64,000 bases of DNA from Plumapathes pennacea (taxonomy: Eukaryota > Cnidaria > Anthozoa > Antipatharia > Myriopathidae), in NCBI GenBank assembly GCA_964036295.1, contig OZ038466.1, forward strand, positions 17,541,097-17,605,096, given 5' to 3'. A program made the translations under genes and the position numbers. Below the pieces are notes generated by a model. The model saw nothing but the letters and a program-made list of their open reading frames with translations. It searched no databases and was not told where the DNA came from. Below are positions 1 through 42,603 of the stretch, piece after piece (the stretch's first letter is position 1; each line of letters begins with the position of its first letter).

Positions 1-217
1 GTGGACTGGGATCGACTGTACTGGACACAACACTACTATTGGGAAAGACGCTCAGGCTTCGACCACCCGCCATATCGAACTTGTTAAATGACAATATTTC
101 ATGTAGGGTCAGATAAATAAAACTGCCAGCACGGTTGGAGCCATTCGACTGAAAGACTTCTGGTGGTAAAATTATTTTGTTTCTTTCGTGGGCGAAGAGC
201 AGTCCATCTGTTTTGAT
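1..217 (-). CDS. GAIN domain exon (third), cut by window edge
   Basis: The acceptor is TTTATTTTAG with the exon starting at 217 in phase 0. The translation starts IKTDGLLFAHE, runs through ILPPEVFQ and then SFIYLTLHEI, and stays open to position 1, ending SSVVSSTVDPSP. The pattern of a 'DGL.F' start, then LPP, then a 'SVVS' strand is typical of the GAIN fold of adhesion GPCRs. This exon continues out of the window towards the expected GPS motif. The domain call rests on the combination with the two preceding exons and the HRM domain. Confidence 0.68.
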   Translation of the reverse strand, partial: MKTDGLLFAHERNKIILPPEVFQSNGSNRAGSFIYLTLHEILSFNKFDMAGGRSLSVFPNSSVVSSTVDPSP

Positions 218-622
218 CTAAAATAAAATAAAAGTCTTCTCAGATTGCTGTTTCCAATTATCAGTCGAGCAAGATATGAAGCAAAGCACATGGGAGTTAT
301 ATACTTCCATTGACATCCCCTTCTATAAATGCACTTTAGTGTGACGACTGCATGTGCCCAAGATTTCTCTCTCAAGAATAGAGGGGGCAATTTGTAGTGA
401 ATTTGAACGTGCAGGTATTATCAGTGTTCAGTGCAGTCTTGGTCTTGACCTTTCTGGTATGTTGTGAGCTGAGGCGTGTCTGTGCGTATTAGCTCTACTG
501 TGTGCATGTCGTGTGTGTGTGTGGCGTTAGTTGAGGCGCGTGAGTCTCATTTGTGTGTATCTACTGTTAAGAGGAGGGAGGGAGGGGTTATGAAATAGAG
601 TGGCCAACCTTGTAAGATTCAC

Positions 623-778
623 CTTATTATTATGTCCAACGTTATCCATTCTCATTACTATATTTGGTGTTTCTACCAAAGCAAATGAATTATTTCCTTC
701 ACCGTCAAGGCTGCTAGCTACGCTCAAACCATAGTTGTCCAATGTATTCACCAGGGTGGCGGAGAAACTATTGTCTTC
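623..778 (-). CDS. GAIN domain exon (second)
   Basis: This is a 156-nt phase 0-0 exon with acceptor TTTTTGCAG and donor AAG|GTGAAT. It encodes EDNSFSATLVNTLDNYGL, then SSLDGEGNNSFALVETPNI and VMRMDNVGHNNK. The 'LVNTLDNYGLSVA...L' helix and the following 'ETPNIVMRMDNV' strand match the helical-to-sheet transition of GAIN domains. The join to the next exon (HNNK|IKTDGLLF) is in frame and makes sense for the fold. An alternative donor 14 bases further (ACAAG|GTTGGC) gives phase 2 and does not fit the next exon. Confidence 0.68.
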
Positions 779-860
779 CTGCAAAAAGAAAAAATATTAG
801 AGTCTAGAAAGTAACTAAAAACCCTCCATGTGTTACTGAATGTGTAACGTACACGCATAA

Positions 861-1125
861 CAGGAGGCAGTGTGGCCGAGTGGCTAGGGCGCTGGACTCG
901 AAATCCGGAGGTCCCAGGTCCAAGTCCCGTTCTGACCACTAGCTGGATTTGTAACACGGCAGCCCCGAGTTCAAATCCTCAGCCACGTTATGTAAATAAC
1001 CAATTGGTTAGCCTCCGACTAGTTGGGATTCTTAACAAATTTACGTTTAGTTTAAGACGGCCGCACCAGCTCTGCTGAATTATTTACCGTGTATAAATAA
1101 AGATACATTACTTTTACTTTCTTTT
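861..1125 (+). repeat. tRNA-derived SINE in the GAIN intron
   Basis: The head is tRNA-like: an A-box match (TGGCCGAGTGG, 873-883) and a B-box match (GGTCCAAGTCC, 917-927) 33 bases apart. A body with AGTTGGGATTCTTAAC follows and the tail ends in TATAAATAAAGATAC then T-rich DNA. The anticodon-like loop reads CGA, suggesting a Ser-type ancestor. The acceptor stem does not close, so it is not a functional tRNA gene. It lies inside the intron between the first and second GAIN exons. Exact ends are uncertain because no target duplication is clear. Confidence 0.72.
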
Positions 1126-1154
1126 TTTGTTCAGCATTGTAAACGGTTACTCAC

Positions 1155-1439
1155 TTCATCCATTTGACGCCAGGTGTTCACATTGGTTTCCTCTAACAAG
1201 TTGCTTGCAGCAAGAAGAAACTTTTTTTGGTTTCCTGGGTTGCTCAAACTTCCATTTCCTTTTCCTGAGTTAAAGTCTGCCAGATGTGCCAGAATTTGAA
1301 CTGAAATCATTATATCGCCGCCATAGACCTGATCCGGCTTTCCCTCGTTATTTTGTGATGGTTTTGTTATGTATGTTAAGACTTCAAGGATTTCTGGAGC
1401 ACTTCTATTTGTTTGAGAACCTTCAACCAGAGCTCTTAC
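1155..1439 (-). CDS. GAIN domain exon (first)
   Basis: A 285-nt phase 0-0 exon has acceptor TTTATTCAG and donor GAA|GTGAGT. The product begins VRALVEGSQTNRSAPEIL and continues EVLTYITK. It holds GGDIMISVQILAHLADF and then FLLAASNLLEETNVNTWRQM. The 'D...SV.IL..L' helix and 'F...ASNLLEE.N...W' are hallmark helices of GAIN subdomain A, which normally follows HRM in adhesion GPCRs. The 3' end of the preceding HRM exon (GNE) joins in phase 0. GAIN acts outside the cell, where it usually performs or frames the autoproteolysis of these receptors. The cleavage motif itself is not in the window. Confidence 0.72.
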
Positions 1440-1559
1440 CTGAATAAAGACAGGCAATGTTAATGTGCGCAAAGTGGTACACCAAGTTGTCAAATTAATG
1501 TGAAGAAGTTTCACGCATAATCAGTTCAATACTAGATGCCGCTATTATCAGAAGCAACT

Positions 1560-1614
1560 TCTTAATTTAGAAGACATTCAAATAGATGTATTTTTGTTTT
1601 GTTTTTGTTTTTGT

Positions 1615-1646
<32 letters not shown>

Positions 1647-1926: not shown

Positions 1927-2030
1927 CTCGTTGCCCAAATCCACGTATTGTTTAGAAGTGCAATTTACGAAATTAGTGGCACCCCAATCTGCTGATCCGT
2001 TCCTCTTCAGGCACGCCCTCACAACTTTCC
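1927..2030 (-). CDS. HRM domain exon (second half)
   Basis: A 104-nt exon enters in phase 1 (acceptor TTTAATTCCAG) and leaves in phase 0 (donor GAG|GTAAGT). It encodes GKVVRACLKRNGSADW, then GATNFVNCTSKQYVDLGNE. The spacing of RAC, a Trp after a Gly/Asp stretch and NC matches the second half of the hormone-receptor domain. The phase change from 1 to 0 ends the run of symmetric cassettes, so exon shuffling or skipping upstream cannot pass this point without staying phase 1. Confidence 0.72.
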
Positions 2031-2258: not shown

Positions 2259-2366
2259 CAGTAGCAGGTGCAGGGCATGGCTTCACGTCACGTGAGCCTT
2301 GATTTGTCGAGGACCAGTCAACTCCATCTTTACTTTCTTTGGGACACACGTCAAGCTTTGGCTTAT
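2259..2366 (-). CDS. HRM domain exon (first half)
   Basis: A 108-nt phase 1-1 exon has acceptor CTCTGCAG and donor CTG|GTAGAT. It encodes DKPKLDVCPKE, then DGVDWSSTN, QGSRDVKPCPAPATG. Cys-Pro, then Trp about nine residues on, then PCP is the signature of the HRM domain found before GAIN in adhesion GPCRs. It can accept any upstream phase-1 exon: splicing from exon B1 skips the damaged C1 and stays in frame. Confidence 0.72.
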
Positions 2367-2445: not shown

Positions 2446-2702
2446 TCAGTGGACACTGGAGGAAGCGTTCCCTATTCTGTTTGTTGCCACACAACTGTAT
2501 CTGCCGTCATCGTCGAATACTGCACTATCGATAATAAGTGTAGAGTTCTTGTTTTTATGGGTGGCCCGTTGTGGTAGCCACGAATTGTCTTTTGTCCACG
2601 AAATTTTTGTCTCAGGTTCAGCACTGGTATTGCAGATCAGTTGCAATCTCTCTCCAACTTGAATATAAACGAATTGAAGCGGAGACAGTATCTTAGGTAA
2701 AG
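2446..2702 (-). pseudogene. Ig exon C1, frameshifted copy
   Basis: The exon begins like the other C exons (acceptor TTTTCAG, ALPKILSPLQF) and keeps the Ig cysteines (LICNTSAEP, GRYSCVATNR). Compared with C2, one extra base near 2456 (GGACACTGG against GGAACTGG on the plus strand) shifts the frame and gives an early TGA at 2446. The usual GTGAGT donor is also replaced by diverged sequence. It is the copy next to HRM. Either it is skipped in the mRNA, or the extra base is a sequencing error and a weaker donor at 2430 (GTGTAT) is used. Confidence 0.7.
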
Positions 2703-2814
2703 CTGAAAATAATCATCACATATGATAAGACACGACACTTTGGAGCTAACGTTGCCTTTGGGCGTTGACAAAACTCATGAGGTTCACTGAACAGTGGACT
2801 GAAACAAAACTCAC

Positions 2815-3078
2815 CATCCACAACCAAACTGGCGACTGCAGAACTGAACCCAGCTCGGCTTGAAGCAGCACACGTGTAACTTCCCTCAAACTTCTCTGTA
2901 TTGTTCACTGCGAACAGCGTCAGGTCCCATTTTTTAATGCTGTGTCTTGGAAGAGATCCACCGCTGAAGTTCCATTTGACCGACGGCTCAGGCACTCCAC
3001 TGACTTTGCATGGAAACGTAACGTTCTGCCCCTCAATTACTAAGCGGTCTTTGGGTCGCTCGGTGAACTGGGGTACGA
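2815..3078 (-). CDS. Ig exon B1
   Basis: A 264-nt phase 1-1 exon has acceptor CTATTTTCAG and donor GATG|GTGAGT. It encodes one Ig-like domain: VPQFTERPKDR leads in, the first Cys lies before KVSGVPEPSVKWNFSGG (tryptophan core), and FEGSYTCAASSRAG holds the second Cys. It carries LFAVNNTEKF in the E-F region. It reads straight into C1 or, with C1 skipped, into HRM. Good splice sites on both sides argue that it is a real exon. Confidence 0.82.
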
Positions 3079-3246
3079 CTGAAAATAGATTTACACACCA
3101 TTAAGTAAAGCACATATCATAAAATACTGTTATTTCTTTCTTGTACTGACTGCAAAAAAAATAAAAATATATATAAAGAATTAAAAGAAAACTTGAGTGT
3201 TAAAAACAATTGGCAAACTACAAATTGCAACTCGTGGTACACATAC

Positions 3247-3585
3247 ACAACACTTCAACGCTTAGTTCCGTGGTATGGTTGGTCCTCACTCCGTTAAACA
3301 CCTGGCATGTGTAATTGCCGCTTTCTTCATACGTGATGCCGGCTGTTCGCAGATACAGACGACTGGTGACGTTCCACTGGGACGGCTTCGCATATTCCAA
3401 AACCTGAACCACTTGGTTATTATGCGCTTCTGAGAACTCGGACAGGTTCTTGATTTCCTTCCCATCTTTCTTCCACACGACACTAGGCAGGGGTTTCCCG
3501 TATCCATAGCAGTCGACCGTGATGTTTCTCGTACCATTCATGAGTTTCAGGCTATGAGACTTCGGGATATAGATGCGATGAGGCG
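3247..3585 (-). CDS. Ig exon A1
   Basis: A 339-nt phase 1-1 exon encodes one Ig-like domain. The start is APHRIYIPKSHS, the B-strand cysteine lies in VDCYGYGKPLP, the core is VVWKKDG, and ESGNYTCQVFNGV holds the partner Cys. Several Asn-X-Ser/Thr sites occur (NGT, NLS, NVT, NYT, NHT), as expected for an extracellular domain. The acceptor follows a long poly-T tract (TTTTTTGTAG), and the donor is TTGT|GTATGT. The poly-T and the AAAT-rich block upstream vary in length between units. Confidence 0.82.
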
Positions 3586-3589
3586 CTAC

Positions 3590-3745: not shown

Positions 3746-4286
3746 CCAGACAAAATACGTCATGTGGTAGGTGTTAGGTTAAAAACAAACAAAAAATATC
3801 TATTTAACAATATCTATTTAACATAGTCACGATACAAGCCGCGCGCTGATTGGTCGAAAACCGTGGTTTGCCAGAGTATAAACCACACTTACCCGTGGTT
3901 TATAAGTTATAAACCACGCTTACGTCATCCTCTGGCAAAAAAAAGAGAAAATAATGCGAGAATGGAGTCACCAATGCCCAACTTCGAGATAAAATTTGGC
4001 TTTAAGTGAAGACACCGGCTAGTACGGTTCACCGTGAATCGGTAAAGAACGTGACCTCATCAAAAAGCACTTCAACAGTTTGGAGAGGGAAAATCTATGT
4101 CGAAGAACGGCAAGTTTCTTGTCAGCGTTGTGGAAAGCGACTCGGTTTAAGCACTGTCCCTAAGTACAGCATATTTGGGAGTCACAATTACATCAGTGGG
4201 TTGTTTGAATGAAGTTGAATGCTTCAACAAGGAAGGAGAGAGCAAATCATTCAGTTGAAGAATATCAGCCGTGAGCAATCACTTAA

Positions 4287-5077
4287 AGGATAACTCCGAC
4301 CAAAAATTAATGCATTTTTAAATAAACCTTAAAGGTACGGATAATCCATATTCGAACTGCTTTTGCACATATTGCTCTTCAGGAATTTTTTAAAAATCCT
4401 TGAATGTCACTATTTTGCGAGTTTTGGCCTCAAACACCGCGGCGCAGAATTCGCGTGTCAGCGGTAATTTTTATCAATGTGTGACGTAGTGTATGGGGAG
4501 CTTGAAGATGGCGGCGGGTCACAGAGTGAATTGTTTATCGTCTCAGACGATAAAGCGAGGTTTGTTGGAGGTGGACGGTTCGAAAAGATCGTAGACACAG
4601 TGTCCGCCTTCAGATTCATAATTGAATTTCCATCAAGAAGCTATGCTCTCATACAATTTACGCTCGAGGCAGTCTGAAGTGAACCGGCGGCTCGGAGCAC
4701 ACGACAGAATTCTTTGAAAGGATAGGATCTTCTCCAGAAATTTAGGCCAGCCGTATCTTGCGTCTGTTGGAATTCCTGTAAAGTCGATTGTAGTTGATAC
4801 CCCTGGCTTTGCTCGAGTCAATTCGGCGATTGAACGCATCCGACACATCACCTTGCCTTTGTAAAACTCTCAAGCTCCCCATACTATACGTCACAAATTC
4901 ACAAAATTGCCGCTGACATGCGAATTCTGCGCCGCGGTGTTTGAGGCCAAAGTTCGCTATTCATTGATTTTTTACGAAATCGAGAAGCGCAATACGTGCA
5001 AGAGATGTTCGAATATTGATTCCCCGTACCTTTAGGGTTTTTTTAAAAATGCATCAATTTCAGGTCGGAGTTATCCT
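4287..5077. mobile_element. TTAA-bordered non-autonomous element, 791 bp
   Basis: The ends are AGGATAACTCCGACC and its inverse, flanked on both sides by TTAA (4283-4286 and 5078-5081). The inverted similarity extends well inwards: the GGCGCAGAATTCGC region near 4441 reappears inverted near 4921. TTAA targets are characteristic of piggyBac-type transposition, but the tips do not start with CCC, so the family is open. Confidence 0.68.
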
Positions 5078-5446
5078 TTAACATGAACGGCGAAGACAGA
5101 CGAACAGACGTGTTTGTAGTGATGCAAGAGAAAGAATTTCCGACGATGTGACTGAAAAAAATGATTGAAGAATTTTCGGACGGACTTCAAATGATTGTAC
5201 TACGAGATAGAGTCAAGAAATCGGTAAGTTTTCATTCACACAATTTTCGAGTCGGCCGTTGGAGCATTTGTTGATTCCCTTCAAATTTGCATTTTATGCA
5301 CTAGCCGACTGTATGATTTCATGTACTTGTAGTCCAAATTTCTACGGGAAAATATATAGATCTTATTAACCGAGCGCGCGGTCCGTACAGTAAGTTATGG
5401 ACCGAGTTTTTTTCGTCGCCTTATGGCCCGAGCGCGCTTCGCGCGC

Positions 5447-7910
5447 GTTCTGATTGGTCAATTTTACCGGTCCATAACTTACTGTACGGACCGCAAAATC
5501 AGTTTGCACATGTGGATCGCAAATTATTACTCAAAAAGTTGCTAAACGTTTGTCATAAAAGGCCCAGAAGTGCAATGGGAAGTTTAAACGTTCCGGATAC
5601 TCACTGTTAAGTTACGATGATCGGGGAAAGCTTACAATCTTGGAAAATGACCGTTACGAAGAAGGAAAACATCCGAGGAAAAAATTGCTTGCGACCTCAG
5701 CCGTCATTGACAACAAGCGCTGCAGAGTATGGAGGGTTGTTTCACCTCTGTGTTCAAATTTGCACACTTGCCAGGAAGAAAGTGGAAAGCGAACAATCAC
5801 CGTGAACAGTTATGACTAAAACCGTGCAAGAATCAAGTTTTGCAGACATGTTTGCTCGTCATGGCGCGCTGTGGAGACTGTAAATAAATTTTTCACAATG
5901 CACGAGAACTCTGTATTTCGAAATCACTGACTGGGACAAAAACGCCGTGGTGATTTGAGGACGTTTATTTTGCTGGAAGATACCTAAACGCTCCACGAGG
6001 AGGCAGGAAAATTAAGCGGTGAGTTTTGAATAATATAACTTTCAACGATGTGTTGGTCGCAGTTTGTGATGAAATGATTTTCTTTTAGTGCCATTTTGCC
6101 TTCTACATTATTGTACGTGTAAGAAACTTATTCAAAAGAATAAAAAATACTCTGAGTTACAAAGCAGTTTCTTCTGGAAAGAGATAAGACTGCAGTTTTT
6201 TTAAATCTTTAGTGAGCGAGCAAGGGCGAGTTCGAGTCGTTCACCGAATAAAGTTCACTGCAGTGTCGTTGTTTGACACACGCTATGGGCCATTTCATTC
6301 AGTTTAGAACAAATTAGTATTTATCTAGGCAGTTGGTTCGACAGACGCTTATTTTCTTTCAAGATTTTCAAATCGGTAGAATTGTAAGCTGTTAACTGAA
6401 TTTGTTGTGAAAACAAACGTGCGTAATTCATGCCTGATCGCGATTGATGTTGTTGAATGAACGAGACGAGTACTCGTGTTTTGTGTTTGCCTAAAGATCT
6501 AAAGCCATATAATAAATATCTTATTAACCTCGTTTGCTTGGTCCGTACCGTAAGTTATGGATCCTCGTTTTTTTCGTCGCCTTATGGCCCTCGCGCGAAG
6601 CGCGCTCGGGCCATAAGGCGACGAAAAAAACTCGGTCCATAACTTACTGTACGGACCGCGCGCTCGGTTAATAAGATCTATTTATTATATGGCACTGATA
6701 CTACGCACGCTACGATTGGTTAATTTACCGGTCCATACTTTCCTGTACGGAGGGCCATAAGGCGACGAAGAAAACGAGGATCCATAACTTACGGTACGGA
6801 CCAAGCAAACGAGGTTAATAAGATATTTATTATATGGCTTTAGATCTTTCGGCAAACATAAAACAAGGCCCCAACAAGTACTCGTCTTGTTCATTCAACA
6901 ACATCAGTCGCGATCAGGCATGAATTACGCACGTTTGTTTATTCACAACAAATTCAGTTAACAGCTTACAATTCTACCAATTTGAAAATCTTGAAAGAAA
7001 ATAAGCGTCTGTGGAACCAACTGCCTAGATAAATACTAATTTGTTCTGAGCTGAATGAAATGGCCCATAGCGTATGTCAAACAACGACACTGCAGTGAAC
7101 TTTATTCGGTGAACGACTCGAACTCGCCCTTGCTCGCTCACTAAAGATTAAAAAAAACTGCAGTCTTATCTCTTTCCAGAAGAAACTGCTTTGTAACTCA
7201 GAGTATTTTTTATTCTTTTGAATAAGTTTCTTACACGTACAATAATGTAGAAGGCAAAATGGCACTAAAAGAAAATCATTTCATCACAAACTGCGACCGA
7301 CACATCGTTGAAAGTTATATTATTCAAAACTCACCGCTTAATTTTCCTGCCTCCTCGTGGAGCGTTTAGGTTTCTTCCAGCAAAATAAACGTCCTCAAAT
7401 CACCACGGCGTTTTTGTCCCAGTCAGTGATTTCGAAATACAGAGTTCTCGTGCATTGTGAAAAATTTATTTACAGTCTTCACAGTGCGCCATGACGAGCA
7501 AACATGTTTGCAAAACTTGATTCTTGCACGGTTTTAGTCATAACTGTTCACGGTGATTGTTCGCTTTCCACTTTCTTCCTGGCAAGTGTGCAAATTTTAA
7601 CACAGGGGTGAAACAACCCTCCATACTCTGCAGCACTTGTTGTCAATGACGGCTGAGGTCGCAAGCAATTTTTTCCTCGGACGTTTTCCTTCTTCGTAAC
7701 GGTCATTTTCCAAGATTGTAAACTTTCCCCGATCATCATAACTTAACAGTGAGTATCCGGAACGTTTAAACTTCCCATTGCACTTCTGGGCCTTTTATGA
7801 CAAACGTTTAGCAACTTTTCGAGTAATCATTTGCGATCCACATGTGCAAACTGATTTTGCGGTCCGTACAGTAAGTTATGGACCGGTAAAATTGACCAAT
7901 CAGAACGTGC
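5447..7910. repeat. 2.46 kb near-perfect inverted repeat (palindrome)
   Basis: The left arm (5447-6591) and right arm (6751-7910) are reverse complements with few mismatches over about 1.15 kb, separated by about 160 bp. Each arm carries the same 60-codon stretch (MIGESLQSWKMTVTKKEN...) in opposite orientation. The spacer is made of inverted pieces of the outer flanks (5370-5440 and 7920-8000), so the structure looks like two copies of one element joined head to head. The recurring terminal motif is GGTCCGTACAGTAAGTTATG. Confidence 0.8.
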
Positions 7911-8197
7911 GTAAAATCAATTTGCGGTCCGTACAGGAAAGTATGGACCGGTAAATTAACCAATCGTAGCGTGCGTAGTATCAGTGCCATATAATAAAGT
8001 TCTTTACTGTGAGATGTTGTCTAATTTTATAGAACAGACGGCCTGGTTGAAAAGTTGAAGCGAAACTGTACTGACTTGGCAATTCGGACCGCCGAACCGT
8101 TTAGGAGAATCTATTTTTTCATCGCTGTTAGCATTCCAACATTTTTGATGAATAAAGACAGTTTTATTGTGAAAGTTTTGAAATTCTATGTTATAAA

Positions 8198-8384
8198 ACA
8201 AATAAACCAGCTTCAAGCGTGCTCCGTTCAGAAATAAAGCACTTAGCAAGTGCCGAGAGCACTCAAGAAGTGGGGAAAAACGCTCGCCTTCGGCTCGCGT
8301 TTCTCCCTACACTTCTTTCGTGCTCACGTCACTTGCTGCGTGCTTTATTTCTGAACGGAGCACGCTTGAAGCTGGTTTATTTGT
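8198..8384. mobile_element. Foldback MITE, 187 bp
   Basis: Both halves fold on each other: ACAAATAAACCAGCTTCAAG at the left is matched by CTTGAAGCTGGTTTATTTGT at the right. The arms continue through GCGTGCTCCGTTCAGAAATA, and CTCGCCTTCGGCTCG forms the tip. No coding potential. Confidence 0.75.
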
Positions 8385-8619
8385 TAAACAAAAAATATCT
8401 ATTTAACAATGAGGAATATTTTCGATGGTTAAAATTTTCTTTGAGAAGACCTGTTACTTATCAATTCACTGAAAATCAAAAATATAATTAAATATCACAA
8501 GGTTCTATTGACATTTTATAACTATGTACGATTATGGTGGAGGTGTACAATAAATGCATTCAGCTTTGCAGTGGAATGAGTCCTCTTGAAAAAATACGTA
8601 TTTCAGAAAGAACACTCAC

Positions 8620-8886
8620 CTTGAACCTCAACAGTGGAACTGGAGGAAACGTTCCCTTGTCTGTTTGTTGCCACACAAGTGTATCTGCTGTCATCGTCGA
8701 TAACTGCACTATCGATAATAAGTGTAGAGTTCTTGTTTTCATAGGTGGCCCGTTGTGGTAGCCACGAATTGTCTTTTGTCCACGAAATTGTTGCATCAGG
8801 ATCAGCACTGGTATTGCAGATCAGTTGTAATCTTTCCCCAACTTGAATATATACGTCTTGAAGCGGAGACAGTATCTTAGGTAAAG
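8620..8886 (-). CDS. Ig exon C2
   Basis: This 267-nt phase 1-1 exon has acceptor TTTTCAG and donor CAAG|GTGAGT. It encodes an Ig-like domain with ERLQLICNTSADPDATISW, then TKDNSWLPQRATYENKN and RYTCVATNRQGN. The usual DDGRY of this exon family is DDSRY here, a change in the tight turn before the second cysteine that none of the other C copies shows. The frame is fully open. Confidence 0.82.
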
Positions 8887-8998
8887 CTGAAAATAATCAT
8901 CACATATGATAAGACACGACACTTTGGAGCTAACGTTGCCTTTGGGCGTTGACAAAACTCATGAGGTTCACTGAACAGTGGACTGAAACAAAACTCAC

Positions 8999-9262
8999 CA
9001 TCTACAACCAAACTGGCGACTGCAGAACTGAACCCAGCTCGGCTTGAAGCAGCACACGTGTAACTTCCCTCAAACTTCTCTGTATTGTTCACTGTGAACA
9101 GCGTCAGATCCCATTTTTTAATGCTGTGTCTTGGAAGAGATCCACCGCTGAAGTTCCATTTGACCGACGGCTCAGGCACTCCACTGACTTTGCATGGAAA
9201 GGTAACGTTCTGCCCCTCAATCACTAAGCGGTCTTTGGGTCGCTCGGTTAACTGGGGTACGA
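8999..9262 (-). CDS. Ig exon B2
   Basis: A 264-nt phase 1-1 exon encodes an Ig-like domain with FPCKVSGVPEPSVKW, WNFSGGSLPRHS and GSYTCAASSRAG. Compared with B1 it has LFTVNN in place of LFAVNN. The intron after it towards C2 (about 110 bp) is conserved with unit 1. The intron before it carries a 1.35 kb insertion. Confidence 0.82.
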
Positions 9263-9350
9263 CTGAAAATAGATTTACACACCATTAAGTAAAGCACATA
9301 TCATAAAATACCGTTATTTCTTTCTTGTAGTGACTGCAAAAAAAAAAAAA

Positions 9351-10701: not shown

Positions 10702-10790
10702 AAAAAATATATATATATAAAGCATTAAAAGAAAACTTGAGTGTTAAAAACAATTGGCAAACTACAAATTGCAACTCGTGGTACACATAC

Positions 10791-11129
10791 ACAACACTTC
10801 AACGCTTAGTTCCGTGGTATGGTTGGTCCTCACTCCGTTAAACACCTGGCATGTGTAATTGCCGCTTTCTTCATACGTGATGCCGGCTGTTCGCAGATAC
10901 AGACGACTGGTGACGTTCCACTGGGACGGCTTCGCATATTCCAAAACCTGAACCACTTGGTTATTATACGCTTCTGAGAACTCGGACAGGTTCTTGATTT
11001 CCTTCCCATCTTTCTTCCACACGACACTAGGAAGGGGTTTCCCGTATCCATGGCAGTCGACCGTCATGTTTCTCGTACCATTCATGAGTTTCAGGCTATG
11101 AGACTTCGGGATATAGATGCGATGAGGCG
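10791..11129 (-). CDS. Ig exon A2
   Basis: A 339-nt phase 1-1 exon encodes an Ig-like domain. The first Cys lies in MTVDCHGYGKPLP, the core is VVWKKDG, the second Cys is in GNYTCQVFNGV. It has SEAYNNQ where most copies have SEAHNNQ. Acceptor TTTTGTAG and donor TTGT|GTATGT match A1 exactly. Confidence 0.82.
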
Positions 11130-11130
11130 C

Positions 11131-11310
11131 TACAAAAAAAAAAACAAAACAAAACAAAAAAAAAAAAAAAAAAAAAAGAAAGAAAAAACAAAACAAAACA
11201 AAAAAAGATAAAAGTTAAAAAGTAATAAAAAAAATGAGTAAAAAAATAAATAAATAAATAAATAAATAAATGAATAAAAGTAAAAAAGTAAAAAAGTAAA
11301 AAAGTAGACT
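11131..11310. repeat. Poly-A and (AAAT)n block before exon A2
   Basis: The block reads as a poly-T splice tract on the minus strand. It is longer than in unit 1 and interrupted by CAAAACAAAAC units, then AAATAAAT repeats and AAAAGT repeats. Confidence 0.75.
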
Positions 11311-11600
11311 CCTGTTAACACACTTCCAGACAAAATACGTCATGTGTTAGGTGTTGGGTTAAAAACAAACAAAAAATATCTATTTAACGATGAGGAATAT
11401 TTTCGATGGTTAAAATTTTCTTTGAGAAGACCTGTTACTTATCAATTCACTGAAAATCAAAAATATAATTAAATATCACAAGGTTCTATTGACATTTTAT
11501 AACTATGTACGATTATGGTGGAGGTGTACAATAAATGCATTCAGCTTTGCAGTGGACTGAGTTCTCTTGAAAAAATAAGTATTTCAGAAAGAACACTCAC

Positions 11601-11867
11601 CTTGAACCTGAACAGTGGCACTGGAGGAAACGTTCCCTTGTCTGTTTGTTGCCACACAAGTGTATCTGCCGTCATCGTCGAACACTGCACTATCGATAAT
11701 AAGTGTAGAGTTCTTGTTTTCATAGGTGGCCCGTTGTGGTAGCCACAAATTGGCTTTTGTCCACGAAATTGTTGCCTCAGGATCAGCACTGGTATTGCAA
11801 ATCAGTTGTAATCTTTCCCCAACTTGAATATATACGTCTTGAAGCGGAGACAGTATCTTAGGTAAAG
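11601..11867 (-). CDS. Ig exon C3
   Basis: This 267-nt phase 1-1 exon encodes an Ig-like domain (LICNTSADP, ISWTKANLWLP, DDGRYTCVATNRQG). It carries TKANLWLP where C2 and C5 have TKDNSWLP, a change shared with C4, so units 3 and 4 are sister copies at this exon. Donor CAAG|GTGAGT is intact. Confidence 0.82.
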
Positions 11868-11992
11868 CTGAAAATAATCATCACATATTAGTAGACACAA
11901 CATTTTGGAGATAATGTTGCCTTTGGGCGCGGACAAAACGCAAGAGGTTCACTGAACCGTGGACAGAAACAGTGTTCAGCAACAAAACTCAC

Positions 11993-12256
11993 CATCTACA
12001 ACCAAACTGGCGACTGCAGAACTGAACCCAGCTCGACTTGAAGCAGCACACGTGTAACTTCCCTCAAACCTCTCTGTGTTGTTCACAGTGAACAGCGTCA
12101 GGTCCCATTTTTTAATGCTGTGTCTTGGAAGAGATCCACCGCTGAAGTTCCATTTGACCGACGGCTCAGGCACTCCACTGACTTTGCATGGAAAGGTAAC
12201 GTTCTGCCCCTCAATCACTAAGCGGTCTTTGGGTCGCTCGGTGAACTGGGGTACGA
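11993..12256 (-). CDS. Ig exon B3
   Basis: A 264-nt phase 1-1 exon encodes an Ig-like domain (FPCKVSGVPEP, VKWNFSGG, GSYTCAASSRAG) with TERFEG in place of the TEKFEG of B1, B2 and B5. The intron just downstream holds CAGTGTTCAGCAAC before the donor, shared with B4 only. Confidence 0.82.
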
Positions 12257-12335
12257 CTGAAAATAGATTTACACACCATTAAGTAAAGCACATATCATAA
12301 AATACTGTTATTTCTTTCTTGTACTGACTGCAAAA

Positions 12336-12374: not shown

Positions 12375-12439
12375 TAAAAGAAAACTTGAGTGTTAAAAAC
12401 AATTGGCAAACTACAAATTGCAACTCGTGGTTCACATAC

Positions 12440-12778
12440 ACAACACTTCAACGCTTAGTTCCGTGGTATGGTTGGTCCTCACTCCGTTAAACACCTGGCA
12501 TGTGTAATTGCCGCTTTCTTCATACGTGATGCCGGCTGTTCGCAGATACAGACGACTGGTGACGTTCCACTGGGACGGCTTCGCATATTCCAAAACCTGA
12601 ACCACTTGGTTATTATGCGCTTCTGAGAACTCGGACACGTTCTTGATTTCCTTCCCATCTTTCTTCCACACGACACTAGGCAGGGGTTTCCCGTATCCAT
12701 GGCAGTCGACCGTGATGTTTCTCGTACCATTCATGAGTTTCAGGCTATGAGGCTTCGGGATATAGATGCGATGAGGCG
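12440..12778 (-). CDS. Ig exon A3
   Basis: A 339-nt phase 1-1 exon encodes an Ig-like domain (ITVDCHGYGKPLP, VVWKKDG, GNYTCQVFNGV). It has PKPHSLKL and KNVSEF where A1 has PKSHSLKL and KNLSEF. The intron position just after the donor has GAAC in place of TACC, shared with unit 5. The acceptor follows a 60-base A-rich tract on the plus strand. Confidence 0.82.
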
Positions 12779-12779
12779 C

Positions 12780-12916
12780 TACAAAAAAAAAACAAAACAA
12801 AAAAAACAAAAACAAAAAAAAACAAAAAAAAAACAAAAAAACAAAAAAACAAAAAAGAAAAGAAAAGAAAAAAGAAAGATAAAAGATAAAAAGTAATAAA
12901 AAAAATGAGTAAAAAA

Positions 12917-12959
<43 letters not shown>

Positions 12960-12975
12960 AAGTAAAAAAGTAGAC
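12780..12975. repeat. Poly-A, AAAAAC and (AAAT)n block before exon A3
   Basis: This is the longest of these blocks: AAAAAC units, AAAAG units, then about ten AAAT repeats. Read on the minus strand it is the pyrimidine tract and upstream intron of A3. Confidence 0.8.
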
Positions 12976-13266
12976 TCCTGTTAACACACTTCCAGACAAA
13001 ATACGTCATGTGGAAGGTGTTAGGTTAAAAACAAACAAAAAATATCTATTTAACGACGAGGAATATTTTCGATGGTTAAAATTTTCTTTGAGAAGACCTG
13101 TTACTTATCAATTCACTGAAAATCAAAAATATAATTAAATATCACAAGGTTCTATTGACATTTTATAACTATGTACGATTATGGTGGAGGTGTACAATAA
13201 ATGCATTCAGCTTTGCAGTGGACTGAGTTCTCTTGAAAAAATAAGTATTTCAGAAAGAACACTCAC

Positions 13267-13533
13267 CTTGAACCTGAACAGTGGCACTGGAGGAAACGCT
13301 CCCTTGTCTGTTTGTTGCCACACAAGTGTATCTGCCGTCATCGTCGAACACTGCACTATCGATAATAAGTGTAGAGTTCTTGTTTTCATAGGTGGCCCGT
13401 TGTGGTAGTCACAAATTGGCTTTTGTCCACGAAATTGTTGCCTCAGGATCAGCACTGGTATTGCAAATCAGTTGTAATCTTTCCCCAACTTGAATATATA
13501 CGTCTTGAAGCGGAGACAGTATCTTAGGTAAAG
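13267..13533 (-). CDS. Ig exon C4
   Basis: A 267-nt phase 1-1 exon encodes an Ig-like domain close to C3, with TKANLWLP changed to TKANLWLPQ following a TAC-rich variant, and GNVSSS changed to GSVSSS by one base (GAACGCT against GAACGTT on the plus strand). Both cysteines and the tryptophan are kept; splice sites are intact. Confidence 0.8.
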
Positions 13534-13658
13534 CTGAAAATAACCATCACATATAATTAGACACAACATTTTGGAGATAATGTTGCCTTTGGGCGCGGAC
13601 AAAACGCAAGAGGTTCACTGAACCGTGGACAGAAACAGTGTTCAGCAACAAAACTCAC

Positions 13659-13922
13659 CATCTACAACCAAACTGGCGACTGCAGAACTGAACTCAGCTC
13701 GACTTGAAGCAGCACACGTGTAACTTCCCTCAAACCTCTCTGTGTTGTTCACAGCGAACAGCGTCAGGTCCCATTTTTTAATGCTGTGTCTTGGAAGAGA
13801 TCCACCGCTGAAGTTCCATTTGACCGACGGCTCAGGCACTCCACTGACTTTGCATGGAAAGGTAACGTTCTGCCCCTCAATCACTAAGCGGTCTTTGGGT
13901 CGCTCGGTGAACTGGGGTACGA
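13659..13922 (-). CDS. Ig exon B4
   Basis: This 264-nt phase 1-1 exon encodes an Ig-like domain (FPCKVSGVPEP, VKWNFSGG, GSYTCAASSRAE). It is the only B exon with SRAEFSS; the others read SRAGFSS. TERFEG is shared with B3. Splice sites are intact. Confidence 0.82.
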
Positions 13923-14096
13923 CTGAAAATAGATTTACACACCATTAAGTAAAGCACATATCATAAAATACTGTTATTTCTTTCTTGTACTGACTGCAAA
14001 AAAAAAATAAATAAAAATATATATAAAGCATTAAAAGAAAACTTGAGTGTTAAAAACAATTGGCAAACTACAAATTGCAACTCGTGGTACACATAC

Positions 14097-14435
14097 ACAA
14101 CACTTCAACGCTTAGTTCCGTGGTATGGTTGGTCCTCACTCCGTTAAACACCTGGCATGTGTAATTGCCGCTTTCTTCATACGTGATGCCGGCTGTTCGC
14201 AGATACAGACGACTGGTGACGTTCCACTGGGACGGCTTCGCATATTCCAAAACCTGAACCACTTGGTTATTATGCGCTTCTGAGAACTCGGACAGGTTCT
14301 TGATTTCCTTCCCATCTTTCTTCCACACGACACTAGGCAGGGGTTTCCCGTATCCATGGCAGTCGACCGTCATGTTTCTCGTACCATTCATGAGTTTCAG
14401 GCTATGAGGCTTCGGGATATAGATGCGATGAGGCG
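14097..14435 (-). CDS. Ig exon A4
   Basis: A 339-nt phase 1-1 exon encodes an Ig-like domain (MTVDCHGYGKPLP, VVWKKDG, GNYTCQVFNGV) with PKPHSLKL and KNLSEF. Acceptor and donor match A1. It differs from A2 and A3 at only a few positions, so duplication is recent. Confidence 0.82.
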
Positions 14436-14869
14436 CTACAAAAAAAAAAAAACAAACAAACAAAAAAACAAAAAAACAAAAGAGAAAAGAAAAGAAAAAA
14501 AGATGAAAGATAAAAAGTAATAAAAAAAAAGTAAAAAAATAAATAAATAAATAAAAGTAAAAAAGTAAAAAAGTAGACTCCTGTTAACACACTTCCAGAC
14601 AAAATACGTCATGTGGAAGGTGTTAGGTTAAAAACAAACAAAAAATATCTATTTAACGATGAGGAATATTTTCGATGGTTAAAATTTTCTTTGAGAAGAC
14701 CTGTTACTTATCAATTCACTGAAAATCAAAAATATAATTAAATATCACAAGGTTCTATTGACATTTTATAACTATGTACGATTATGGTGGAGGTGTACAA
14801 TAAATGCATTCAGCTTTGCAGTGGACTGAGTTCTCTTGAAAAAATAAGTATTTCAGAAAGAACACTCAC

Positions 14870-15136
14870 CTTGAACCTGAACAGTGGCATTGGAGGAAAC
14901 GTTCCCTTGTCTGTTTGTTGCCACACAAGTGTATCTGCCGTCATCGTCGAACACTGCACTATCGATAATAAGTGTAGAGTTCTTGTTTTCATAGGTGGCC
15001 CGTTGTGGTAGCCACGAATTGTCTTTTGTCCACGAAGTTGTTGCCTCAGGATCAGCACTGGTATTGCAAATCAGTTGTAATCTTTCCCCAACTTGAATAT
15101 ATACGTCTTGAAGCGGAGACAGTATCTTAGGTAAAG
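14870..15136 (-). CDS. Ig exon C5
   Basis: This 267-nt phase 1-1 exon encodes an Ig-like domain (LICNTSADP, SWTKDNSWLP, DDGRYTCVATNRQG). An ATTTCG to ACTTCG change makes TISW read TTSW just before the core tryptophan, and GGCATTGG near 14886 makes another single substitution. The frame is open and both splice sites are intact. Confidence 0.82.
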
Positions 15137-15248
15137 CTGAAAATAATCATCACATATGATAAGACACAACACCTCGGAGCTAACGTTGCCTTTGGGCGTT
15201 GACAAAACTCATGAGGTTCACTGAACAGTGGACTGAAACAAAACTCAC

Positions 15249-15512
15249 CATCCACAACCAAACTGGCGACTGCAGAACTGAACCCAGCTCGGCTTGAAGC
15301 AGCACACGTGTAACTTCCCTCAAACTTCTCTGTATTGTTCACTGCGAACAGCGTCAGATCCCATTTTTTAATGCTGTGTCTTGGAAGAGATCCACCGCTG
15401 AAGTTCCATTTGACCGACGGCTCAGGCACTCCACTGACTTTGCATGGAAAGGTAACGTTCTGCCCCTCAATCACTAAGCGGTCTTTGGGTCGCTCGGTGA
15501 ACTGGGGTACGA
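15249..15512 (-). CDS. Ig exon B5
   Basis: A 264-nt phase 1-1 exon encodes an Ig-like domain (FPCKVSGVPEP, VKWNFSGG, GSYTCAASSRAG), almost the same as B1 (LFAVNNTEKF). The intron between B5 and C5 is of the unit-1/2 type (CTCATGAGGTTCAC), not of the unit-3/4 type, which suggests gene conversion or a two-unit duplication step. Confidence 0.82.
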
Positions 15513-15685
15513 CTGAAAATAGATTTACACACCATTAAGTAAAGCACATATCATAAAATACTGTTATTTCTTTCTTGTACTGACTGCAAAAAAAAAAATA
15601 TATATATATATATAAAGCATTAAAAGAAAACTTGAGTGTTAAAAACAATTGGCAAACTACAAATTGCAACTCGTGGTTCACATAC

Positions 15686-16024: not shown

Positions 16025-16036
16025 CTACAAAAAAAA

Positions 16037-16068
<32 letters not shown>

Positions 16069-17109: not shown

Positions 17110-17129
17110 CTGAAAATAGATAGCACATA

Positions 17130-31362: not shown

Positions 31363-31463
31363 TTCTTACTTTTACAGATTGCAAAAGATATATAGCATTA
31401 GATAAAAACTTGAAAGCTTAAAATAATTGGCAAACTACAAATTAAAACTTGCGGTACACCTAC

Positions 31464-32161
31464 ATAACACTTCAACGCTCTGTTCCGTGGTCCTGTTGGT
31501 CCCCACTCCGTTAAACACCTCACAGGTGTAAATGCCGCTTTCTTTATACGTGATGCCGGCTGCTCGCAGATACAGACGACTGGTGACGTTCCACTGGGAC
31601 AGCTTCGCAAATTCAAAAACCTGGACCACTCGGTTATTATACGTTTCTGAGAACTCGGAGACGTTCTTTATTTCTATCCCATCTTTCTTCCACACGATAG
31701 TAGGAAGCGGCTTCCCGTATCCATAGCAGTCGATCGTGATGTTTCTCATATAATTCTTCAGTGTCAAGGTGTGAGGTGCGCGCCAGCTGTCACAATTTTA
31801 ATTTCAAGTTTCTGCACTCTTAATTTCAAATTTCTGCACTGCTAATTTCACATTTTTGCACTGTTTGGGATAAATTGACGTGCACTCAGCCAATCAGAAT
31901 GTATGCATGTTATTACACGCATTATTACTTTCTTTCCATGCTTGTTGTCAACTGAAACAGCACTGATGCATAAATGCCTGCACGATTAGAGATCAGACCC
32001 AGGTTCCCCGGGATACCGGTAAAACGTTCTACCAACTGAAGTATTAATTGTAGCGGGAGAATATGAACGGAGTGAGTTCTTACGTTTTAATTTTCATATG
32101 TTTCTCATATAATTCTTCAGTGTCAAGGTGTGAGGTCTCGGAATATGGATGAGCTGACGTG
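31464..32161 (-). pseudogene. Ig exon A9 split by a 320-bp insertion
   Basis: The exon starts at 32161 (acceptor AATAAATAG, QLIHIPRPHTLTLKNY) and its main part is 31777-31464 (ITIDCYGYGKPLPTIVW, KKDGIEIKN, GIYTCEVFNGV, donor TTAT|GTAGGT). Between them is foreign DNA, 31778-32097. A 39-bp segment of the exon (31739-31777) is repeated at 32098-32136. Reading from the acceptor gives a TGA just inside the insert, so this exon cannot be included in a functional mRNA unless the insert is spliced out. Confidence 0.82.
31778..32097 (-). mobile_element. SINE-like element W, copy 1 (inside exon A9)
   Basis: A second copy lies at 41761-42075. On the minus strand the element has CTTCAGTTGGTAGAACG, close to a tRNA A box, followed about 40 bases on by GGGTCTGATCTCTAATC, a poor B-box candidate. 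It contains three tandem AATTTCAxxTTTCTGCACT units at the other end. SINE identity is likely but unproven. The flanking 39-bp duplication is longer than usual for a SINE. Confidence 0.5.
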
Positions 32162-32431
32162 CTATTTATTAAAAGAACACACTTATCAGTGACGGATGTT
32201 TGAACGCGGTTAAATATTTAATCGAAAAATTCAAGCTGGAGAGTACACTCGCGTGGTTGTGTGTCTGACTTCATTACGGCTGTGAGGCAGACGTACTTGC
32301 TTTCTGAATGTGTATTTGTCAGAGGCCTCGTGTGACACATCGACAGTTTATCATCACTTTGCCATGTGTAGCAATGATGTGGCTAATAGCAGATATTTTT
32401 TTTATATGAAGCCTACAAGAAGCTCACTAAC

Positions 32432-32698
32432 CTTGCACCTCAACAGTGCTACTGGAGGAAGTCTTCCCTTGTCTGTTTGTTGCAACACAAGTGTATCTGC
32501 CATCATCGCCCAATACAACGCTGTTAATAATGAGGGTAGAGTTGTTGTTGTCAAGTACGACACGTGCTGGCAACTGCAAGTTGTCTTTTGTCCACGCAAT
32601 GTGTGCTGCAGGATCCCCGCTGGTGTTGCAGCTCAGTTCCAATCTCTCCCCTATCTCGATAAACATGTCTTGTAGTGGAAAAAGGATCTTCGGCAGAA
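32432..32698 (-). CDS. Ig exon C9 (C' type)
   Basis: A 267-nt phase 1-1 exon encodes an Ig-like domain (LELSCNTSGDPAAHIAW, TKDNLQLPARVV, DDGRYTCVATNRQGK). Acceptor TTACTTACAG and donor CAAG|GTTAGT as in C7 and C8. It would splice to B8 if the broken A9 is skipped, keeping phase 1. Confidence 0.82.
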
Positions 32699-32877
32699 CT
32701 GTAAGTAAACATCAGATAGATTAGTTTCAGATAAAACTTTTTTTTTCAAGCACAAGGTAAAGGACACGTAATGGTTTTGAATTATAAATTCAAGGTGGAA
32801 ACGGCAGTAACATTTTTTGTTTCTTAACCATGTAATTAGAAATATATAAATAAGACTAAATTAGCAACAAATCGTAC

Positions 32878-33144
32878 CATCCACAACCAACATAGCACCA
32901 GTAGAATTGATGAACCCTGCTTGATTTGAAGCAGCACACGTGTAACGTCCCTCGAACTTATCAGTGTTGTTTACTGAAAGTAACGTCAAGTTCCATTTTC
33001 CTGTGATGTGTCTTGGCAGAGATCCACCGCTGAAACTCCAATTGACCACGGGCTCTGGCATTCCGCTGACCTTGCAGGTAAATGTAACGTTTTGTCCCTC
33101 AATCGCGATGCGATTTCTGGGTTGTTCAATGAACTGTGGTGCAA
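32878..33144 (-). CDS. Ig exon B9 (B' type)
   Basis: This 267-nt phase 1-1 exon encodes an Ig-like domain; PEPVVNWSFSGG replaces SEPVVNWSFSGG of B7 and B8. It is the first Ig exon after the CUB exons, with retroelement copy 3 and a Helitron-like element in the 7.8 kb intron between. No A exon was found in that intron. Confidence 0.82.
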
Positions 33145-33264
33145 CTGAAATAGAAACAATGACAAGAAAGAAAAAAAAAAAAGCTATCGACCTATCTCAT
33201 TGCATCATTAAAATGTTTCCTCTCTGAGCCTCAAAACATTTTTTAAGTTGCAAAAACTACTGAA

Positions 33265-36729: not shown

Positions 36730-36730
36730 A

Positions 36731-40845: not shown

Positions 40846-40911
40846 CTGGCACTAACACTGTTGAATTGCAATTCAGTAAATCACCAAAAGTTGAAATTAC
40901 ATCTTACTCAC

Positions 40912-41256
40912 CATTCACAATAGCCACGAAACTTGCAGAGAAGCCCGAATAAATACGAGAATGGTCCGAGTGGAAATACACGCGCATGTTGTTGCCACTG
41001 GAAGTAATTCTAGGTGGCATCGTGGCACAATACTTCCCAAGAAGTTGATCAGCCGCTGTGGAACCGTCACGAATTTCTACGAAGTCCCAGATGCATGAGG
41101 AATGACTTTCAAGCGAAAATGAACTGAAGTTGAGAGCCACGTAGTAACCATAAGGAACAGAAATGGACCATACGCAGTTGTCGTAGTTGTTATAGTTGTT
41201 AGGAAAGTTTGGACTGCTGAAAGATCCGGAATACCCAGACAGAGAACGGGAACACG
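40912..41256 (-). CDS. CUB domain exon 1
   Basis: A 345-nt phase 1-1 exon has acceptor CTCCTCAG and donor AATG|GTGAGT. It encodes a full CUB domain: ACSRSLSGYSGSFSSPNFPN at the start, DNCVWSISVPYGYYVALNF, CIWDFVEIRDGSTA, LLGKYCATMPPRI and SSGNNMRVYFHSD. The four cysteines and the 'PNFPNNY', 'DFVEIRDG' and 'YCA..PP' motifs are those of the family. CUB domains are extracellular binding modules, often calcium dependent. The next exon on this strand is the Ig exon B9, in matching phase. Confidence 0.9.
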
Positions 41257-41456
41257 CTGAGGAGGTAAGCAGATGAGAAAAATAATTGTACAAACTAAAA
41301 ATAATAGAACGAAACTAATTGGAGTTAATTAATCAGAAACTAGTTGTCAGTAAATGTTTTGTTTTTGTTTCTGATTTTGTTACTGTTGTTGGTATAGGTA
41401 ATCGCATGATTACAATCTGTATTACAAGTAATCAAATGGATACTGTATTACAAGTA

Positions 41457-41593
41457 ATCACATGATTTCTCGTGCAGTTTGGAATAAATGAGCAAGAGTA
41501 AATTTTTCAAAGACCACGCGCGAGTGCAATTTGTGGTCTTTGAAAACTAACGAGTGCTCATTTATTCCAAAATTGCACGAGAAATCATGTGAT
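41457..41593. mobile_element. Short palindromic MITE
   Basis: ATCACATGATTTCTCGTGCA at the left is inverted as TGCACGAGAAATCATGTGAT at the right, and both arms continue with GGAATAAATGAGCA and its inverse. The centre carries GTGGTCTTTGAAAA in both orientations. Confidence 0.75.
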
Positions 41594-41760
41594 CACTTGT
41601 TAATAACATGCATACAATAATTTACGTCGCGCAATCTTTTTCAATTTCGTTACATTTCACCAGTGTCTCTCAAGAACTATATTTTCTCGAAAACAGAATC
41701 GGAATTGTCCTGAAGAATGAAAACACGCTTTCTGTTTTGCTTGGCTTTGTAACTTAACAC

Positions 41761-42075
41761 GCGCGCCAGCTGTCACAATTTTAATTTCAAGTTTCTGCAC
41801 TCTTAATTTCAAATTTCTGCACTGCTAATTTCACATTTTTGCACTGTTTGGGACGTGCACTCAGCCAATCAGAATGTATGCATGTTATTACACGCATTAT
41901 TACTTTCTTTGCATGCTTGTTGTCAACTGAAACAGCACTGATGCATAAATGCCTGCACGATTAGAGATCAGACCCAGGTTCCCCGGGATACCGGTGAAAC
42001 GTTCTACCAACTGAAGTATTAATTGTAGCGGGAGAATATGAACGGAGTGAGTTCTTACGTTTTAACTTTCATATA
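41761..42075 (-). mobile_element. SINE-like element W, copy 2
   Basis: It matches 31778-32097 from GCGCGCCAGCTGTCACAATT to TTACGTTTTAACTTTCAT with about 10 bases missing near 41850. It lies in the intron between the two CUB exons. Confidence 0.6.
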
Positions 42076-42249
42076 CTCAAAAGTATACTTTATCCGTTGC
42101 TCGCACTGGCACTGACAATGCTGAATTACCACCCGCTTGGAGTATGAGAAGATTTCATTAGCAATCTCCTAAGGGATCTCTATATAACACTGATTCTTTT
42201 CAGCACTTTTCACTAAACCACCAAAAGTTAAAATTGCATCCTTACTCAC

Positions 42250-42603
42250 CACTTTTAGAAGTCACGTAATTTGCGGAGAAGCCAGACAAAGTTACACTTC
42301 CGTCCGAGTGGAAATACACGCGCATGTATTTGCCACTGGATACAATTCTAGGGGGCATGTTGGAGGCACAATACTTCCCAAGAAGTTGATCAGCCGCTGT
42401 GGCGCCGTTACGAATTTCTACGAAGTCGTAAGGACATTGGCTTCCTCCCCCCTCGAGCCTAAATGAATTGAACTCGAGAGCCACGTGGTCATAAGGAGAA
42501 GAAGCAGTAATGTTCCATACGCAGTGCTGGTTGTCAGGATAGTTGTTAGGGAAGTTTGGGCTGCTGAAAGAGTCGGAATACCCAGACAGAGAACGGGAAC
42601 ACG
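42250..42603 (-). CDS. CUB domain exon 2
   Basis: A 354-nt phase 1-1 exon has acceptor GTCCTCAG and donor AGTG|GTGAGT. It encodes a CUB domain closely related to the neighbouring one: ACSRSLSGYSDSFSSPNFPN, then a QHCVWN-type segment, CPYDFVEIRNGATA, LLGKYCASNMPPRI, SSGKYMRVYFHSDGS and LSGFSANYV. The two CUB exons and part of the intron next to the donor (GTTGCTC.CACTGGCACT) are duplicated. This is the most upstream exon I can assign to the array gene. Confidence 0.88.

Follow-up and report, generated by a model that had tools for sequence, protein, structure and literature searches.

The question raised by this locus is whether a long array of immunoglobulin (Ig) exons, preceded by CUB exons and followed by HRM and GAIN exons, belongs to a single adhesion G protein-coupled receptor (aGPCR), and how such an ectodomain could have arisen. 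The locus lies in 64 kb of contig C5 (26.6 Mb) of Plumapathes pennacea, hereafter the window, and the genome searched comprises 290 Mb. We think it probable that the window carries most of P5, one of five tandem aGPCR genes, encoding a signal peptide, two CUB domains, 22-23 Ig domains, HRM, GAIN and a predicted GPS and seven-transmembrane (7TM) part, with a mosaic and amplified ectodomain that would act as an adhesive tether.

Read 5′ to 3′ on the minus strand, the signal-peptide exon is followed by a pair of CUB exons, an array of 25 Ig exons and, last, five HRM/GAIN exons. The array is built from three kinds of Ig exon, A (nine), B (nine) and C (seven), which repeat in the order A-B-C from 33145 to 2455. 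The features are as follows.

51826..51898, minus strand: signal-peptide exon MKRSVCCYSLIFWSVVLMLFTHSK, proposed to be the first coding one (phase-1 donor G|GTAAGA); an exon upstream of P3 shares 86% identity with it.
42250..42603, minus strand: CUB1 exon, phase 1-1 (PF00431, 2.5e-29; splice sites).
40912..41256, minus strand: CUB2 exon, phase 1-1 (PF00431, 2.4e-32; splice sites).
32430..33145, minus strand: Ig exons A1 and B1, upper type, intact (Pfam and splice check).
31462..32162, minus strand: Ig exon C1, damaged, in two pieces ~320 bp apart, the main piece (31779) without a phase-compatible acceptor.
25077..25793, minus strand: Ig exons A2 and B2, upper type, intact, without a following C (splice check).
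18599..19922, minus strand: Ig exons A3, B3 and C3, upper type, intact (Pfam for C3; splice check).
15684..17110, minus strand: Ig exons A4, B4 and C4, intact (Pfam for A4 and B4; splice check).
14095..15513, minus strand: Ig exons A5, B5 and C5, intact (Pfam for C5; splice check).
12438..13923, minus strand: Ig exons A6, B6 (exon at 13534, damaged by an in-frame TGA) and C6 (splice check).
10789..12257, minus strand: Ig exons A7, B7 and C7, intact (splice check).
8618..9263, minus strand: Ig exons A8 and B8, intact (splice check).
3812..8385, strand not assigned: insertion within the B8-C9 intron, bounded by a direct repeat of ~25 bp (joined flanks compared with unit 5).
2813..3589, minus strand: Ig exons C9 and A9, intact (splice check).
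2449..2703, minus strand: Ig exon B9, shortened, running into a stop and with a weak donor only; P4 has the same end.
2260..2366, minus strand: HRM exon 1, phase 1-1 (PF02793).
1927..2030, minus strand: HRM exon 2, phase 1-0 (Pfam).
1155..1439, minus strand: GAIN exon 1, phase 0-0 (PF16489).
623..778, minus strand: GAIN exon 2, phase 0-0 (Pfam).
1..217, minus strand: GAIN exon 3, continuing past the window edge (Pfam).

A previous reading made from the letters alone (the sequence-only reading) had described two CUB exons and a 25-exon Ig array directly followed, in phase, by HRM and GAIN exons, and had asked for a profile search of the exon translations; Pfam finds CUB, I-set, HRM and GAIN there, and the splice phases are compatible. 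I-set was matched by all seven Ig exons tested (at least two per kind), HRM matched PF02793 at 1.1e-5, exactly at the curated cut-off, and GAIN matched PF16489 at 1.2e-20 over the five joined window exons; NCBIfam gave no match for the HRM-GAIN part. Both CUB exons and 22 of the 25 Ig exons have an open frame with phase-1 acceptor and donor, and the HRM/GAIN exons have open frames, compatible phases (by eye) and intact splice sites. Because B6, C1 and B9 fail the splice and frame check, the intact Ig exons number 22 and not the up to 23 first counted, a figure that would be reached only if B9 were used. Two CUB domains, 25 Ig exons and HRM make up the predicted long multidomain N-terminus expected of an aGPCR, and the signal-peptide exon at 51898 places the start of the gene upstream of 42603. 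A tRNA-Ser(CGA)-like match, possibly the head of a short interspersed element, was seen on the plus strand within a GAIN intron (866-937).

Beyond position 1 the window adjoins 5000 bases of N, so the GPS and 7TM of P5 are unreadable. Four aGPCR genes, P1-P4, lie upstream in tandem on the same strand, with the exon order [C-]A-B-HRM1-HRM2-GAIN1-3-GPS-TM12-TM3-TM67 (C-A-B in three of the four); a seed search found two to four Ig exons before HRM in each. GPS and transmembrane (TM) exons are present in all four. In P4, GPS reached 9.3e-13 (Pfam run on P4 alone) and 7tm_2 5e-12, and the best solved chains for its joined GPS and TM segments were ADGRL3 (2.6e-52) and ADGRD1 (3.1e-52). The flanks of the N block match P4 at 90% over 1.0 kb and at 94% over 0.4 kb, and the P4 stretch between these matches, 5450 bp long, contains GPS and three recognised TM exons. 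From this collinearity, and from the order in P1-P4, we infer that the window copy also has GPS and 7TM exons. P1-P4 read HLT at the GPS, followed by TMFSSLMD or TMFASLMD (the T counted in); we take HLT to be the GPS cleavage triad, which would make this a predicted cleavage site, and the sequence that follows presumably fits the usual tethered-agonist pattern.

Two side observations concern these exons. A short TM6-like fragment, a relic or an alternative exon, lies downstream of the 7TM exons in each of P1-P4, outside the window (window coordinates 68896, 109267, 156154 and 182682). At least 101 GPS exon matches were listed genome-wide; contig C10 alone has 50, gathered in several dense clusters, which points to a large aGPCR expansion.

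The CUB/Ig array and the HRM-GAIN exons could instead belong to two genes, one encoding a secreted or anchored CUB/Ig protein and the other a short aGPCR that starts at the last C-A-B Ig exons, as the few Ig exons of the sister genes, the 5-kb gap between B8 and C9 and the stop codon in the B9 frame would suggest. However, the gap reflects sequence inserted into an intron: when the flanks are joined, 582 of 598 aligned bases (97.3%) agree with unit 5. The B9 stop lies only ~80 bp before HRM. Distances to HRM1 are short as well: 88-135 bp from the final Ig exon in each of the five genes and, in the window, 446 bp from A9, the nearest Ig exon that is intact, so that a gene end and a promoter would have little room. 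Signal-peptide-like exons with phase-1 donors lie upstream of each gene, at 51898 (window), 87368 (P4), 141629 (P3), 178259 (P2) and 194209 and 200553 (P1), and four more scan matches, two of them within a TM exon, are unlike gene starts. No such exon was found inside the array by strict and relaxed heuristic scans, which could miss an exon, and the sole relaxed match there was CUB2 itself. We regard the two-gene arrangement as quite unlikely.

The sequence-only reading had proposed a single aGPCR gene, and we find this model, with its recently grown Ig array, well supported by paralogue order, the signal-peptide scans and the intron insertion, all of them comparisons of sequence. Several points count against it. 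GPS and 7TM of the window copy fall in the unreadable N stretch, and joint transcription of the CUB/Ig array with HRM-GAIN is an extrapolation from the genomic order. The last Ig exon before HRM1 is damaged both in P4 and in the window, where B9, adjoining HRM, would need to be skipped or spliced from a weak donor; because P4 carries the same shortened exon, also with a stop, this damage probably predates the split of the two genes. Phase agreement is weak evidence as well, since all exons are phase 1.

How the array grew can be read from its self-comparison. Blocks of the same kind, 0.6-6 kb long, are 90-98% identical, including introns and retroelement-like sequence, in agreement with the recent expansion that had been noticed from the letters. 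The blocks fall into two kinds, the upper A-B-C, present three times and once lacking its C, and the lower one at 17.1-2.4 kb; C exons of the two kinds are 82-85% identical to each other. Retroelement-like blocks at ~38-33.9, 29.9-26.6 and 24.9-20.7 kb (Gypsy-like long terminal repeat elements, by eye only) were duplicated along with the array. By these identities, the array is the product of recent segmental duplication of two block kinds. The likeness of same-kind units could also mean that the Ig copy number is an assembly artefact, but each copy has private changes, insertions and a differing intron length, and two sister loci (Q and R, below) have their own eight and seven C exons among the matches listed, making such an artefact very improbable.

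Intact Ig exons are all phase 1-1, so that any subset would stay in frame, and sister genes with two to four Ig exons exist; the array could therefore be a splicing reservoir from which Ig triplets are chosen per cell, with few Ig domains in each protein. Dscam exon clusters consist of variants of one domain that are spliced in a mutually exclusive way. Here, by contrast, each repeat unit joins three different domains instead of variants of one domain position, and same-kind copies are nearly identical in protein, so choice among them would add little diversity. We consider such a reservoir rather unlikely, and the long single ectodomain remains our preferred reading.

Substitution rates, given as the ratio of nonsynonymous to synonymous proportions (pN/pS, NG86), showed no excess of amino-acid change of the kind expected for a diversifying receptor. 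Between paralogous genes pN/pS was 0.29 for A, 0.34 for B (P4 B exons excluded) and 0.37 for C, indicating that the Ig exons are under constraint between genes, and the HRM-GAIN part, open in all five genes, had a mean of 0.59 (range 0.32-0.86); because of these values we see no general excess. Within the young lower array the values were 0.19 for A, 0.85 for B (damaged B6 and B9 included) and 2.5 for C on very few changes (pS 0.005), and among the upper copies 1.17 for B and 0.53 for C, with A lacking silent change. The young Ig copies thus look near neutral, on few changes.

These rates also bear on whether P5 is a decaying gene, an amplified copy that is no longer expressed. Three of the 25 Ig exons are damaged, the introns hold the retroelement-like blocks and a 4.6-kb insertion, and pN/pS of the window HRM-GAIN against its sisters is 0.56-0.86. 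However, pairs among P1, P2 and P3 likewise give 0.68-0.80, only the pairs of P4 with P1-P3 being lower (0.32-0.46), and the open HRM/GAIN frames and their splice sites are intact, as are 22 Ig exons and the signal-peptide exon. Decay is unlikely in our judgement.

The sequence-only reading had treated the joining of a growing Ig array to a GPCR module as unusual. Growth of such an array is not peculiar to the GPCR, since the same array occurs on neighbouring genes for a receptor tyrosine kinase (RTK), a receptor tyrosine phosphatase (RPTP) and other receptors. C-type exons gave 50 matches at ≤1e-6 among the best 150 of 208 candidates, 46 of them on C5 at 17.54-18.61 Mb (some being the distant type C′), and B-type exons gave 43 at ≤1e-12 among the best 150 of 967 candidates, 42 of them in the same interval. 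CUB gave 30 matches at ≤1e-12 among the best 150 of 270 candidates, with nine on C5 at 17.58-18.88 Mb. The reading covered five 10-kb pieces within this region, and four loci, Q, R, S and T, were recognised there.

Locus Q has the order CUB-CUB-(A-B-C)n, then six Ig exons and FN3, and R and T share this 3′ order; among the matches listed Q has eight C exons and R seven, plus one C′ each. In T, six exon matches to the protein tyrosine phosphatase (PTP) domain, apparently of two domains, follow on the same strand after an unread gap of ~7 kb (C5:17970378-17976303), which is why we assign T to the RPTPs. R has the TM-proximal RPTP domain PF18861 (Pfam) and Q the same domain by eye, and in both a TM exon leads, again by eye, into a short tail closed by a stop codon. 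No PTP match was found at Q or R among 128 PF00102 matches (best 150 of 165 candidates), with ~7 kb past the Q TM and 2 kb past the R TM read, so both are apparently phosphatase-less. In the same set of matches (128, from the best 150 of 165 candidates), the PTP catalytic domain that marks an RPTP was not found at the window gene. Further PTP matches crowd C5 at 18.1-19.6 Mb.

Locus S (C5:17946097-17956096) has A-B-C-A-B with three CUB matches upstream. Further 3′ come a TM-like exon, whose phase matches, and five tyrosine-kinase pieces ordered as in the profile; two of the five score above the Pfam cut-off. One of its kinase exons has 44 relatives at other places in the genome, including 17 on C5 at 0.8-1.75 Mb; S itself was not among the matches listed by a genome-wide kinase search (best 140 of 1164 candidates).

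Exon trees place parts of the window array with different members of this neighbourhood. The A9-B9 pair groups with P4 (support 99/96), the A4-A8/B4-B8 pairs group with Q (87/97), and C4-C9 group with the second C exon of Q (99/98) and not with P1 or P2, while C1 and C3 group with the RTK locus S (93/89), the P4 C exon coming next (97/93). A window C shares 95-96% identity with two Q exons, but 75-87% with other loci and the remaining Q exons (down to E 1e-50); the closest relative of CUB1, among the matches listed (best 150 of 270 candidates), is that of S, at 89%. Because window Ig units group with Q, S and P4, pieces of the ectodomain have moved between receptor classes, in a direction that the trees do not tell. 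By its ancestry in these trees the Ig/CUB part is thus a mosaic, assembled through exchange of ectodomains, and its occurrence on several receptor types suggests that recognition cassettes were swapped.

Some observations speak against a simple history. Support for placing the amplified A-B units with Q is moderate, the first C exon of Q falls elsewhere in the trees, and the trees hold few C exons of Q and R, the second C exon of Q having been read partially. The HRM-GAIN part of the window is 92.1% identical to P4, against 93.1% for P3, 92.4% for P2 and 93.0% for P1; since it is not closest to P4, the evidence for kinship with P4 is the last A-B pair together with the shortened exon common to both. 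The joining of array and PTP in T rests on strand, order and nearness, and that of Ig and kinase exons in S on the same three and on phase.

Outside this cluster the aGPCR core occurs apart from the array. GAIN1 gave 14 matches (all 14 candidates scored), five in the cluster and nine elsewhere (C5 at 21.9 Mb and contigs C8, C6 and C2), and no C- or B-type exon was found at the outside sites among the matches listed (best 150 of 208 C and 150 of 967 B candidates). For the nearest aGPCR relatives, at C5 21.9 Mb, one 5-kb piece (C5:21926480-21931479) has HRM exons, with no Ig exons near them by eye in ~4 kb. A satellite-like repeat of ~100 bp (by eye) lies upstream of these HRM exons.

One further element of the window was considered as a 5′ part of P5 and set aside.

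55900..61363, minus strand: decaying remnant of an RPTP-like gene, with one FN3 and five Ig exons, outside the aGPCR gene.

These Ig-FN3 exons (61.4-55.9 kb) recur between the tandem aGPCR genes, at 101-97 kb and partly at 145 kb. In the window copy I5 runs into a stop and FN3 is spread over two frames instead of one as in Q; in the copy at 97-101 kb both I4 and I5 are broken. A less damaged form of the same exons is part of the RPTP-like loci Q, R and T.

Taken together, these results allow a mechanism to be proposed. The Ig/CUB part would have been exchanged with neighbouring genes that bear the A-B-C ectodomain on a kinase, a phosphatase or a short tail, and its triplets then amplified by unequal recombination between phase-1 exons. 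P5 would most likely be a long adhesive tether, with a rod of two CUB and ~22 Ig domains serving as both ligand binder and lever, the ligand being on another cell, in the matrix or on a microbe. In aGPCRs the GAIN domain undergoes cleavage at the GPS and keeps a tethered agonist concealed; in P5, pull or binding may free this agonist, and the 7TM part would then signal via a G protein. The ligand, the direction of the signal and any immune use are conjectural at this stage, as is the role in self/non-self or microbe recognition that had been proposed for the array.

That neighbouring RTK, RPTP and aGPCR genes carry the same rod suggests that one type of ligand could be read with different outputs. 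More tentatively, and with considerable doubt, the chromosomal region may be a complex where exon recombination passes a single fast-growing CUB/Ig ectodomain between aGPCR, RTK and RPTP genes, the same ligand giving activating, opposing and G-protein signals, as invertebrate paired receptors possibly used for self or microbe recognition. The locus bears on what aGPCRs bind and on how their ectodomains came to vary, and it presents this process while it is young, with phase-1 Ig/CUB exons amplified and moved between receptor classes in a single part of the chromosome. Should the shared ectodomains prove to have a common binding partner, the region would hold an invertebrate analogue of paired receptors, its outputs being kinase, phosphatase and G protein; the locus provides a directly testable gene set.

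The linkage of Ig and CUB domains to an aGPCR core is itself not new, because earlier reports describe it: sponge aGPCRs have Ig, I-set, V-set, fn3 and HRM domains (PMC4302439) and amphioxus aGPCRs have I-set and CUB domains (PMC2246102). The window gene resembles both in having Ig, and the latter in having CUB, before the aGPCR core, but an array of this size, a recent triplet amplification and an ectodomain shared with kinases and phosphatases are not described in those parts of the two papers. Domain shuffling has been reported for choanoflagellate aGPCRs (PMC12716839), the family has been reviewed (PMC13197933), and another study reports a sponge adhesion GPCR gene with a GPS domain that is up-regulated after microbial challenge (PMC6208332). 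The accessible text of a coral receptome study (PMC9897584) has nothing on an Ig-array aGPCR, and a literature search of partial coverage, mostly at title and abstract level, found no aGPCR with a comparable array or an ectodomain shared with RTKs or RPTPs. What appears to be new here is that the Ig exons, and in part the CUB exons, are held in common with RTK, RPTP and apparently phosphatase-less receptor genes.

Compared with known systems, the family has the HRM-GAIN-GPS-7TM order of ADGRL and ADGRD receptors (GPS and 7TM read in the paralogues). The ectodomains of those receptors are lectin/olfactomedin or pentraxin-like, unlike the CUB-CUB-(Ig)n of the window gene, and vertebrate aGPCRs have one or two Ig domains, far below the 22 intact in the window. 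The Ig triplet resembles solved chains of Robo, titin, contactin, DSCAM and RPTP sigma/delta, and the likeness to RPTPs with Ig-FN3 ectodomains extends to locus T, which bears the array with FN3 and PTP exons; in the window gene, however, HRM and GAIN replace FN3 and PTP. Hydractinia Alr and Botryllus fuhc, which are invertebrate allorecognition complexes, are duplicated or polymorphic cell-surface receptor genes at one locus; allorecognition receptors are marked by high allelic polymorphism and by their control of fusion or rejection. The window, known from one genome, likewise has its receptor genes at one chromosomal locus, but the signalling part of the window gene is a GPCR. In vertebrate paired receptors of the Trem and KIR type, one ectodomain type is joined to opposite signalling outputs; at this locus the corresponding outputs would be RTK, RPTP and GPCR, a pairing to which the sequence alone points.

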